From contig JAHEDK010000014.1 in NCBI GenBank assembly GCA_024641245.1, positions 1-64,000 on the forward strand: 64,000 bases of DNA, given 5' to 3'. The notes beneath the pieces are model-generated. The model did not search any database. It saw nothing but the letters and a program-made list of their open reading frames with translations, and was not told where the DNA came from. Shown here piece by piece: positions 44,224 to 51,102 of this stretch (the stretch's first letter is position 1; each line of letters begins with the position of its first letter). Made by a program: the position numbers and the translations under genes. This stretch comes from Actinomycetes bacterium (GTDB lineage Bacteria; Actinomycetota; Acidimicrobiia; Spongiisociales; JAHEDJ01).

Positions 44224-44334
44224 TTTCTCGGCAATACAGCGTCGTGTGGTGGTCCACAGCATTGCGGAGAAACCGGAGGGAGTTTTCTGCGCAATGCAAT
44301 GGTCGGTTAATCGTGCACAGTATTGCGGAGAAAC
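44224..44334. repeat. Tandem pair of family-1 palindromic repeats (60-bp step)
   Basis: TTTCTCGGCAATACAGC..CCACAGCATTGCGGAGAAAC and TTTCTGCGCAATGCAATGG..GCACAGTATTGCGGAGAAAC. Confidence 0.88.
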
Positions 44335-44422
44335 CTCGATCGAAGATTGCGCGTAACCGTGGCCATCCGAAATCCGTCTCTCCCAGGACAAGAACACCTT
44401 GACTAGGGAGGACGGGAGACGT

Positions 44423-46743: not shown

Positions 46744-46854
46744 TTTTCCGCAATGCAATGGTGCGTTTTCAGACCAGAGCATTGCGGAGAAACTGGGGGG
46801 ATCCTTCTGCGCAATGCAATGGTGCGTTTTCCGACCACTGCTTTGCGGAGAAGC
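46744..46854. repeat. Tandem pair of family-1 palindromic repeats (60-bp step)
   Basis: TTTTCCGCAATGCAATGGTGCGTTTTCAGACCAGAGCATTGCGGAGAAAC and CTTCTGCGCAATGCAATGGTGCGTTTTCCGACCACTGCTTTGCGGAGAAGC. Confidence 0.9.
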
Positions 46855-46895
46855 CAGAGGGGGTTTGCACTACGCGGATAGTGTAAAGTGGCGCC

Positions 46896-47753
46896 GTGGC
46901 TGCGTTCCTGGTGATGTTGCGTGAAGGTGTCGAGGCGGCGCTCGTCGTCGCCATCCTGCTTGCCTACCTCAACCGGCTCGGCTCGCGCAGCCATATCCGG
47001 TGGGTTTGGGTCGGGACGGTTTCGGCGGCCTTCCTCTCCCTCCTCATCGGCATCGTGATCTACAACACCGTCGGTTCCCTCGAAGGCCGTGCCGAGCAAC
47101 TCACCGAAGGAGTGGTGGCATTCGCGGCCGGCGGTCTGCTCACCTGGATGATCTTCTGGATGGGCAAGAACGCCCGTCAGTTGCGCGGAAAGCTGGAGTC
47201 GGAAGCTGCCTCGGCGGTGGCGCTCGGCGGCGTAGCCACACTGGCCGCGGTGGCGTTCGTCGCCGTCCTGAGAGAGGGCCTCGAATCTGCCCTCTTCCTG
47301 ATCTCGACGACAGTGGGGGAGTCCGCCAGCGGCAGCCAGCTGGTCGGCGGTCTGCTCGGCCTGCTGGCCGCCATCGGCATCGGCTACCTCATGTACCGGG
47401 GCGGCAGCCGGATCAACCTCCGGATCTTTTTCCGGGTCACCGGGTTCCTGATCATCCTCTTTGCGGCCGGCCTGGTATCGAAGGGCGTCCACGAGTTCCA
47501 GGAGGCCGCCGTGCTGCCGATCTTGATCGAGCCTCTCTATCAGGTGCCGTTCGGCGATCCAGACATCAGCACAATCGCCCGGTTTGCCAAAACGATGTTC
47601 GGATGGTCACCGGGTCCATCGCTACTGATGGTGATCTCCTACTGGGCCTACTTACTGCCGATTGGAGCCGCCTTTGCCCAGATGACGGCAGCTGTCCCTC
47701 CTGCCCCCGGGGTTTCGAATGACCACCTGCCGGCGGAACGGCTGAACGGCTAG
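46896..47753 (+). CDS. FTR1 family iron permease
   Basis: MLREGVEAALVVAILLAYL and LREGLESALFLIS (two REGxE motifs); GTG start after TAAAGT. Confidence 0.9.
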   Translation: MAAFLVMLREGVEAALVVAILLAYLNRLGSRSHIRWVWVGTVSAAFLSLLIGIVIYNTVGSLEGRAEQLTEGVVAFAAGGLLTWMIFWMGKNARQLRGKLESEAASAVALGGVATLAAVAFVAVLREGLESALFLISTTVGESASGSQLVGGLLGLLAAIGIGYLMYRGGSRINLRIFFRVTGFLIILFAAGLVSKGVHEFQEAAVLPILIEPLYQVPFGDPDISTIARFAKTMFGWSPGPSLLMVISYWAYLLPIGAAFAQMTAAVPPAPGVSNDHLPAERLNG

Positions 47754-47807: not shown

Positions 47808-48314
47808 CTATTCGTTGGGTTCTTTCTCCGGAGGCGCACTCCAGAACAGGGCGAGCTGGGTGATGCCGGCTCCGAACCCGGCCAACCCGATGATGAATCC
47901 GGGCCATCCGGAGACGTTCAGGCCGATGGCACCGTCGATCGAGTACTCCCCGGCACCGAGAGTGGCGATTGTCAGGCCGACGACGCCGAGCATCATCACG
48001 TACTCCCAGCCTTCGATCGGGCGGTTGAAGGCAAAGAACCCCGCCTTTCGGTGATTGGAGACGCCGGCCACGATCATCGTCGCCACAAGACCGGCGGCGG
48101 CGAAGGTGGTTAGAAACCCAGTAATGAGACCGGCGCCGATGGCGAGTTCGCCGGCCGCCGAGAGGATCGCCTGAACCCTGGCGCGACTGAATCCGATGGA
48201 CTCGAACCAGGCCGCGGTGCTATCGAGCTTGCGTCCGTGGTTGAGGCCGTGAGCGATCATCACGGCGCCCGCGGCCACCCGCAAGATCAGCAAGCCGAGA
48301 TCTTGTGCATCCAT
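47808..48314 (-). CDS. DoxX family membrane protein
   Basis: LGLLILRVAAGAVMIAHGLNHGRKLDSTAAWFESIGFSRARVQAILSAAGELAIGAGLITG. Confidence 0.85.
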   Translation of the reverse strand: MDAQDLGLLILRVAAGAVMIAHGLNHGRKLDSTAAWFESIGFSRARVQAILSAAGELAIGAGLITGFLTTFAAAGLVATMIVAGVSNHRKAGFFAFNRPIEGWEYVMMLGVVGLTIATLGAGEYSIDGAIGLNVSGWPGFIIGLAGFGAGITQLALFWSAPPEKEPNE

Positions 48315-48542
48315 CGCTGCTCCTTCACGTGTTCTGCCCTGCGCAACCATTCCGGCCGGCGATCTCTTCCCGACCGGTCGAGAAAACCCTACATAACCAA
48401 GTGTTATGCCGACGTATTTCATCCGCTTGGGCGGGTATGCCGGCACCTTTGAATGGGGCCAACGGCGCGTCCGAGGACCGACAGAACGCGATACATTGCC
48501 CGCAAGGGGTAGGAACCTTGACATCGCTCTGGAAGGAGTGCC

Positions 48543-49649
48543 ATGTCACCCAGCAAGAGATTGAACTTGCTGATCTTGTTCATCGTGATGGGTTTCTTTG
48601 TTTCGGCCTGCGGGTCGGACGACACCACCGAGACCACAGAGACCACCGCGGCTGCTGCCGCCGAAACAACAATTCCAATGGTCGTCACGACCATGGCCGA
48701 GATGACCACGACCACAGTGGCCGCGACCACAACGACCACAGAAGCGATCGATGAGAGTGCGGTTCTCGCCGCCCACATCACCGCCCGCCTTGCCGACTGG
48801 TCGCCGACGATCTCGGCCGAAGCGCTGTTCGAGAACCTCTCGGACGGCGACGAGTCGAACGACCCCTTCATTCTGAGCGTCCGGGCGCCGGATGCCTACG
48901 CGCTCGGTCACATCGAGGGCGCCTACAACATCCCCTGGAAAGAAATCGCCGACCCGGCGAACCTGGCGAAGTTGCCGACCGATCAACCAATCGTCGTGTA
49001 CTGCTACACCGGCCATACCGGCCAGGTGGCGGCGACGCTACTGCGGATCTTCGGTTACGACGCCACCAATCTCAAGTTCGGAATGATGGGCTGGACCGAC
49101 GACGACACGATCCTGGCCACCGCCCGGTACACGGCTGCTCCGGGATACCCCACCGAAACTGAAGCCAACGAACTGACCGTCGAATACGAACCGCCGACGC
49201 TGACCACGGGTGAGACGGTGGCGGTCGATATCGCGATTGCGTCCGCACAGAGTTTCTTGGCCGACTGGGCCCCGACGACATCCGCCGAAGCCTTGTTCGA
49301 GAACCTCTCAGACGGTGATGATGCGAACAATCCGTTCGTGCTGAGCGTCCGGGCGCCGGACGCGTACGCGCTCGGCCATGTGGAAGGTGCCTACAACATC
49401 GGTTGGAAAGCCATCGCCGATCCGGCCAGCCTGGCCATGCTCCCATCCGACGAGCAGATCGTCGTCTACTGCTACACGGGTCACACCGGCCAGGTGGCGG
49501 CAACCGCCCTCAAGCTGCTCGGCTACGACTCCGTCAACATGAAGTTCGGGATGATGGGCTGGACCGACGACGATGCGGTCCTCGCCACCGGCCGCTACAC
49601 GGGTGCGCCGGGATACCCGACCGAAACCGTGATCAACGAACTGCCCTAG
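48543..49649 (+). CDS. Lipoprotein with two near-identical rhodanese-like domains
   Basis: Lipobox VSACG; Thr-rich linker; two repeats SAEALFENLSDGD..SVRAPDAYALGHxEGAYNI..VVYCYTGHTGQVAAT.. Confidence 0.9.
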   Translation: MSPSKRLNLLILFIVMGFFVSACGSDDTTETTETTAAAAAETTIPMVVTTMAEMTTTTVAATTTTTEAIDESAVLAAHITARLADWSPTISAEALFENLSDGDESNDPFILSVRAPDAYALGHIEGAYNIPWKEIADPANLAKLPTDQPIVVYCYTGHTGQVAATLLRIFGYDATNLKFGMMGWTDDDTILATARYTAAPGYPTETEANELTVEYEPPTLTTGETVAVDIAIASAQSFLADWAPTTSAEALFENLSDGDDANNPFVLSVRAPDAYALGHVEGAYNIGWKAIADPASLAMLPSDEQIVVYCYTGHTGQVAATALKLLGYDSVNMKFGMMGWTDDDAVLATGRYTGAPGYPTETVINELP

Positions 49650-49704
49650 ACCGGACCAGCGGGAGGCGTGGGTGAGATTCCGGCGCCTCCCACCAGGAGT
49701 TGAT

Positions 49705-51102
49705 ATGAAACGATGGACTCTGGTGGTTGCCGCAGCGGCGATGATCGTGGCCGGAGGCGTACTCGCCGGTTGCAGCAGTGACGAGCCGGAAGCTCCAGAT
49801 ACCTCTGTGGCGGCTCTCGACACAACGCCGAATCCGGCGGCAACCACTTCGACACAGGCCGTCGCTCCTACGACCACCGAAGCGATGGATCCGGACGCAG
49901 CCTGCATCGATTGCCACACCAACCAGGAAACCCTGATGGCGCTCGCCGTTGAACCGGTGGACGCGGAATCGCTCAGCTCGGGTGAGGGCTGAGGCGGCTC
50001 GGTGCCTCAGTTGGAGGCATGGGAGCAAGTATTCGTCAGCGATGAGGAATTCCCGGCCAGCACGCACGGTCAGGTGGGGTGCACCACCTGTCACGGTGGA
50101 GTGCCGGGCGCAACCAACATGGAAGAGGCCCACACCGGAATAACGATCGATCCGGACCCGATCACCACCTGTGCCACCTGCCACCAAGACACCACCGACG
50201 ATCACGTCGGCAGTTTGCACGCGACGCTGGGTGGCTACGACACCATTCTGCTGGCCCGCAGTGGCGACGACGAACTCTCCCCCGGGTTGGAGGAGGCCTT
50301 CGCCAATCACTGTGCTTCCTGCCACGCCTCGTGCGGGCAATGCCATGTGAGCCGGCCGACCAGTGCCGGAGGGGGACTGCTGGCCGGTCACTCGTTCAAA
50401 GAGACGCCGCCGATGAACTTGACCTGCACAGGCTGTCACGGCAGCCGCATCGAGAACGAGTACAAGGGCAAGAACGAGATGGGCGACGGCGGGACCTATC
50501 CGGCAGACGTCCACTACAACCCGGGCGGCATGGCGTGCTTTGCGTGCCACACCGGCGACGACATGCACGGGGTCGGCCCCGAGCAGGAGTTCCGATACGA
50601 CGGAGCGCAGGATCCGGCCTGCACCGATTGTCACCCGGACCTCGAAGGCGCCAACGCCCAGCACACGGCATGGCATCTGGATGCTTTGTCCTGTCAGGTC
50701 TGCCATTCGGTGGCATACAAGAACTGCTACAGCTGCCACGTGCAGAAGTCGGATGAAGGCGTCCCTTACTTCGAGACGGATGAGTCGCAGATGCTGTTCT
50801 ACATCGGGAAGAACCCGACCCCGACCGAGGACCGTCCGTGGTCGTGGGTGACGGTTCGCCATGTGCCCGTCGATCAGGACAGCTTCTCCTTCTACGGGGA
50901 TGATCTATTGCCGGAGTTCGATGCCCGGCCGACCTGGCTGTACGCGACGCCGCACAACATCCAGCGGTCGACGCCGCAGAACGCCTCCTGCGATGCCTGC
51001 CACGGAAACGCCTCGATCTTCCTGACCGAAGACAAGGTCGATCCCGTCGAACTCGACGCCAATCAGAGCGTGATCGTCACCGAGATCCCAGGGGGTGGAT
51101 GA
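49705..51102 (+). CDS. Undeca-heme c-type cytochrome lipoprotein interrupted by one in-frame UGA (candidate selenocysteine at codon 96)
   Basis: ORF1 (ATG 49705, AGGAG RBS, lipobox VLAGC, CIDCH) ends at TGA 49990-49992; ORF2 is in the same frame with 10 CxxCH and no signal peptide. Confidence 0.7.
49997..50026 (+). promoter_or_regulatory. SECIS-like hairpin directly downstream of in-frame UGA
   Basis: GCUC-g-GUGCCUC-AGUUG-GAGGCAU-gg-GAGC; apical loop begins 17 nt after the UGA's last base. Confidence 0.5.

Follow-up and report, generated by a model that had tools for sequence, protein, structure and literature searches.

A candidate selenocysteine-containing undecaheme cytochrome c family associated with rhodanese

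Selenocysteine (Sec) has been proposed to occur in a multiheme cytochrome of Geobacter sulfurreducens, ExtKL (GSU2937+GSU2936), on the basis of an in-frame UGA (PMC5877670, PMC1914089). The entries of a 2026 inventory of prokaryotic selenoproteins include ExtKL and the GSU2204 family, together with a Sec member of the octaheme family that is annotated in GenBank (PMC13188914). The GSU2204 family is set apart from the proteins considered here by its description as an outer-membrane beta-barrel (PMC13188914). The family considered here is not described in the inventory (PMC13188914), and we found no description of it in openly licensed full texts, although an earlier mention elsewhere is possible.

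In the present work, we examine a gene of an acidimicrobial genome, located in a stretch of 64,000 nucleotides that is called the window below. The first-pass annotation of this DNA had joined two successive open reading frames into one 465-residue protein, with the UGA between them decoded as Sec. We will show that this proposal is strongly supported by the conservation of the UGA, by the Sel genes of the genome and by a hairpin following the codon.

The frame opens with the ATG at 49705, runs through the TGA at 49990-49992 and terminates at the TGA at 51100-51102, as read directly from the DNA; the coding frame without the final stop is thus 49705-51099. The frame, ribosome-binding site, LAGC motif, linker, heme motifs (one plus ten CxxCH) and TGA position given in the annotation all hold on re-reading. 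The features of the gene are the following:

49693-49704, plus strand: Shine-Dalgarno region (AGGAG) 5′ of the ATG, read directly
49705-51102, plus strand: predicted Sec-containing undecaheme c-type cytochrome lipoprotein of 465 amino acids, a single gene through the UGA
49705-49773, plus strand: lipoprotein signal peptide ending in LAG-C23, from the translation; many homologues have lipobox-like signals
49903-49917, plus strand: first heme site, CIDCH, residues 67-71, the only CxxCH 5′ of the UGA by motif count
49990-49992, plus strand: UGA codon 96 in the context SGEG-U-GG, read as Sec from the homologue alignment
50080-51003, plus strand: ten more CxxCH heme sites, starting at residues 126, 156, 203, 210, 241, 278, 306, 330, 341 and 429

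A Thr/Ala-rich linker comes after the lipobox LAGC (Cys 23). With 11 CxxCH motifs in total, one before codon 96 and ten after it, an export signal and a PF14522 match above the cut-off, the product has the characteristics of a multiheme c-type cytochrome. AlphaFold models computed without hemes had pLDDT values of 65.7 and 69.3, which is a low confidence, and gave no fold matches.

To collect homologues, contigs were scanned with six peptide patterns, none of which lies over the UGA site. Of the loci obtained, 44 are true members (L023-L066); a single weak Bacteroidetes match (L067), whose translated frame is not open, was excluded. According to the record titles, the members come from Acidimicrobiia, Anaerolineae, Dehalococcoidia, deltaproteobacteria/Desulfobacterota, Phycisphaerae, KSB1 and Calditrichota. 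As delimited by sequence, the family spans Actinomycetota, Chloroflexota, Desulfobacterota, Phycisphaerae, KSB1 and Calditrichota. Two sister genomes carry the cytochrome with 94% (same genus) and 78% identity, and the UGA is present in both. Profile searches covered two phyla: in the one that includes the deltaproteobacterial member L038, 49 of 395 genomes were positive, and in that of the window, 5 of 397. Plasmid records contained no homologue, and PHROGs gave no match.

The Sec column could be read in 71 trimmed homologue frames, four of which are duplicates of other loci (L073, L074, L077 and L080). It holds UGA in 68 frames, and Cys, Tyr and Trp in one each. The surrounding motif is GEGUGG in the main group, and AGUGV and GEGUAG in two divergent groups. 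The annotation had looked to homologues for a conserved UGA or a Cys at this position, and the UGA is indeed conserved in its context across phyla. An in-frame UGA inside a conserved frame, by which a bacterial selenoprotein is recognized, is thus present. Another such mark, Cys in the Sec column of some homologues, is seen in a single partial homologue, L072 (GGCGG), the assembly of which lies outside the selA-positive set and the contig of which may be misplaced in that assembly. Cys homologues are accordingly very rare, and judging from the alignment this is a nearly Sec-only family. The Tyr form (L093) is fused to two rhodanese domains. At another locus (L028, 142-2760), a paralogue with 21 CxxCH motifs and without the GEG-U-GG block adjoins the Sec cytochrome.

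The protein reading past the UGA is conserved in those homologues that cover the site, to a degree far beyond chance. Compared with its near relative L020, the present gene shows 60 synonymous and 16 non-synonymous codon changes 3′ of the UGA, which indicates purifying selection on this part. These observations bear on the possibility that the UGA is a sequencing error or that the gene has decayed. The source assembly is a draft of 71 contigs (2.70 Mb, 87.6% complete), and an error would not be out of place there. However, the identical UGA occurs in independent assemblies from several phyla, and the region behind it is under purifying selection, so that we give this explanation a negligible chance.

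Another explanation is that two proteins are made: a short lipoprotein with one heme, and a separate cytochrome that is restarted by translational coupling at GTG 50002, the first possible start 3′ of the UGA. In the window, this GTG is indeed accompanied by a GAGGCGG stretch just 3′ of the UGA. However, in 12 of 41 homologues the position is occupied by GTC, GCG, TTA or GTT, and a restart at GTG 50002 was ruled out because the start codon is not conserved. Furthermore, c-type heme attachment takes place outside the cytoplasm, yet no signal peptide follows from this start. The Cys and Tyr homologues continue across the site, and neither UAA nor UAG was observed at the position of the UGA. The two-protein explanation is therefore very improbable.

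We now turn to the RNA that follows the UGA, where one element was identified:

50002-50020, plus strand: predicted SECIS hairpin, GUGCCUC-AGUUG-GAGGCAU, from the fold, covariation and a covariance-model match

A bacterial SECIS element is a hairpin just 3′ of the UGA with a small apical loop containing a G. Here, the apical loop begins 16-17 nucleotides 3′ of the UGA and contains G and U. In an alignment of 41 homologous segments 3′ of the UGA, the common stem pairs columns 13-20 with columns 24-31 around a loop of 3-5 nucleotides. Double-sided changes are seen in six of the eight stem pairs, and 88.8% of the cells are paired. The covariation score of the stem is 0.363, as compared to a mean of 0.140 for shuffled alignments, none of which (0/500) reaches this value, and to at most 0.142 for slid versions. 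The commonest exchange, from C-G to G-C at columns 16/28, alters two amino acids together, the protein variants over the stem being VPPLEAW, VAPLEPW and VEPLAPH. These coupled swaps are accounted for by RNA pairing, and a protein constraint alone is not sufficient to explain them. Taken singly, the hairpins exceed synonymous shuffles in stability by only a modest margin (mean z -1.15), and the support for a SECIS comes from the covariation.

A covariance model matches the window hairpin with 2.1e-12, a value that has to be read with the window in the training set. The model also matches loci outside that set (L069, L070, L071, L088 and L089) as well as the Trp form L029, but L072 (Cys) and L093 (Tyr) give no match. 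It misses the divergent groups represented by L091 and L100, in which a hairpin still folds at this place. Rfam gives no match at the hairpin site. On the basis of fold and covariation, we assign the hairpin at 50002-50020 as a SECIS element.

The genome should also encode the insertion machinery, and the selA, selB, selD and tRNA-Sec genes that the annotation had suggested looking for are all there. The tRNA-Sec lies at C70:131236-131326 (71.9 bits, above the cut-off, anticodon TCA by ARAGORN), and selA (434 bits) and selB (318 bits) adjoin each other on contig C29. The selD gene (399 bits; locus L019, G000:C70:172097-173026) has an in-frame UGA of its own, in the context HGSG-U-ACK and with a hairpin 3′ of it. 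Among the contrary observations that the annotation had named, such as a genome without these genes or homologues that end at the UGA, none of those examined was made.

Of the 39 long ORFs in the window, 23 end with UGA, more than with any other stop. The recoding is therefore local, and a genome-wide recoding of UGA was ruled out on this ground. It could also be argued that this particular UGA is read as an ordinary amino acid, for example as Trp by suppression, since homologue L029 has TGG at the Sec column. However, a single base in this codon (UGG versus UGA) separates L029 from its sister L030, the hairpin of L029 is entire and its genome has selA, so that the Trp codon either arose recently or reflects a sequence error. 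Suppression would, in addition, leave no role for the hairpin or the Sel genes, and we regard it as most unlikely.

Across the family, 41 of 44 genomes with a homologue score above the cut-off for selA, and the gene was not found in the other 3; it was likewise not found in 4 of the 49 positive assemblies in the phylum of L038 by profile search. The genomes are mostly MAGs, and incompleteness is the likely reason for the missing genes. It is important to note that 355 of 395 Desulfobacterota genomes carry selA, which makes its co-occurrence uninformative there, and we dropped it as proof for that phylum. In the phylum of the window, 226 of 397 genomes have selA above the cut-off, including all four UGA-bearing ones, which is consistent with Sec but weak as evidence.

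Taken on the sequence evidence, the UGA at 49990-49992 is almost certainly recoded as Sec, and it is very probable that this recoding and the translation of 49705-51102 as one protein both hold. In the proposed mechanism, SelA, SelB and tRNA-Sec would insert Sec at codon 96, directed by the downstream hairpin.

The gene preceding the cytochrome has the following assignment:

48543-49649, plus strand: double-rhodanese lipoprotein with two CYTGHTG active-site loops; Pfam PF00581 in two stretches, 101 bits

It ends 55 nucleotides upstream of the cytochrome ATG, on the same strand, and a similar rhodanese gene is found on the same strand, up- or downstream, at 37 of the 44 homologous loci. At L034, L070 and L097, rhodanese and cytochrome form single frames with the UGA inside, while L093 and L096 are reverse fusions, with the cytochrome followed in frame by two rhodanese domains. 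Rhodanese is thus likely to be a functional partner of the Sec cytochrome. Several Chloroflexota loci also contain a HmcB/HybA-like Fe-S protein, a NrfD-like membrane protein (a label given from the sequence, by eye) and an octaheme cytochrome.

Some further features of these loci can be mentioned. The rhodanese domains of L070 and L097 stand ahead of the Sec cytochrome, and the start of L070 resembles, by eye, S-layer-homology repeats. Just upstream of the rhodanese gene, the window encodes a FTR1-family iron permease (46896-47753) and, on the opposite strand, a DoxX-family protein (47808-48524). A REP-like repeat is present as two tandem pairs of an intergenic element of about 57 nucleotides, at 44224-44341 and 46744-46861; the element is partly palindromic (GCAATGCAATGG ... 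GCATTGCGGAGAAA), with a spacing of 61 nucleotides, and the pairs are 2.5 kb apart.

Concerning the Sec site itself, the main family has, besides the 11 CxxCH motifs, ten other conserved His residues (121, 143, 172, 229, 270, 288, 320, 324, 386 and 417). Apart from the Sec column, no Cys outside CxxCH is conserved in the main family, and Sec thus has no partner thiol of the CxxU type. With 11 heme sites and ten additional His, one heme may be without a distal His partner, for which Sec is a candidate. However, His386 is absent in one divergent group, and the His count is for this reason a lead and not a proof. That Sec96 is an axial ligand or a direct neighbour of one heme is on the present alignments doubtful. 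If it were the case, the protein would have a natural selenolate-ligated or selenium-gated catalytic heme, with the sulfur possibly coming from the rhodanese, and a contact between Sec and a heme would represent a novel type of metal site.

The pairing is most simply explained, as we infer, by a transfer of sulfur from a rhodanese persulfide to Sec, in which the hemes would supply or take up electrons. A cysteine persulfide of the rhodanese would hold the sulfane sulfur (or selenium/tellurium), and Sec, in a glycine-rich loop between heme sites one and two, would take over the atom as a selenosulfide. The heme chain would then deliver two electrons and free sulfide, or the process would run in reverse as an oxidation. 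In Chloroflexota, the electrons could come from quinol via the adjoining NrfD / HmcB-like Fe-S / octaheme module. That sulfane-sulfur redox is the actual reaction is a tentative proposal from gene content, with somewhat less than an even chance.

The main alternative to sulfane-sulfur turnover is that the Sec protein acts at the cell surface in the reduction of selenite, tellurite or metals, a role put forward for the Geobacter Ext operon. ExtKL, the proposed Sec cytochrome, shares its gene cluster with the rhodanese ExtH, and selenite/tellurite reduction is impaired when ExtI is lost (PMC5877670). There is also a weak similarity of the family and its locus to ExtM, ExtN and ExtH. However, with ExtN and ExtM (NF040967 and NF040943; predicted to have 10 and 12 hemes and not described as selenoproteins) only part of the heme-motif spacing is common, and the scores of the window protein, 30 and 22 bits, fall well short of the respective cut-offs, 200 and 800 bits. 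Moreover, no ExtI, ExtO or ExtP gene was recognized beside the cytochrome in the window. An Ext-like function is therefore possible but rather unlikely.

Whichever reaction takes place, a large selenoprotein family from several phyla is added to a catalogue that lacks it, and selenium chemistry would be located within an exported electron wire. The pairing of rhodanese with a Sec cytochrome, in places beside a quinol-type electron module, has been little noticed. Pipelines that treat UGA as a stop split such genes into a short fragment and a cytochrome without signal, and in uncultured bacteria a pathway of respiration or detoxification is thus probably misread. Since Cys forms are almost absent, methods based on Cys homologues would miss the family, and the authors of deep-Sep themselves acknowledge the limit of relying on such homologues (PMC12013277).

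Finally, we compare the protein with the known systems. Octaheme tetrathionate reductase (PDB 1sp3) gives a profile match over one region (1.4e-7), but the score for TIGR04315 is about 23 bits against a cut-off of 375, and there are 11 heme sites instead of 8. To NrfA and the octaheme nitrite reductases, only short heme-region stretches are similar in the profile search (E ~1e-3). TsoB (NF045694) also links Sec with rhodanese, and the partner rhodaneses match it in part; TsoB is, however, named as a rhodanese/DsbD-like fusion, while here Sec sits in a multiheme cytochrome. Pfam and NCBIfam have no family-specific model, the best NCBIfam score of the window protein being 30 bits, where the cut-off is 200, and Pfam recognizing general heme families. 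ExtKL (NF040886) shares the multiheme cytochrome, the in-frame UGA and the clustering with a rhodanese-like gene, ExtH. It has, however, five N-terminal hemes followed by an unrelated C-terminal part, and no SECIS was found for it (PMC1914089). The window protein, with 11 heme sites of which ten come after Sec, does not have this arrangement, and its gene has a clear SECIS. The NF040886 model (curated cut-off 250 bits) gave no match at E<=0.001 among 34 homologues. We therefore rate the protein as belonging to a new selenoprotein family, near ExtKL in kind but not a member of ExtKL.
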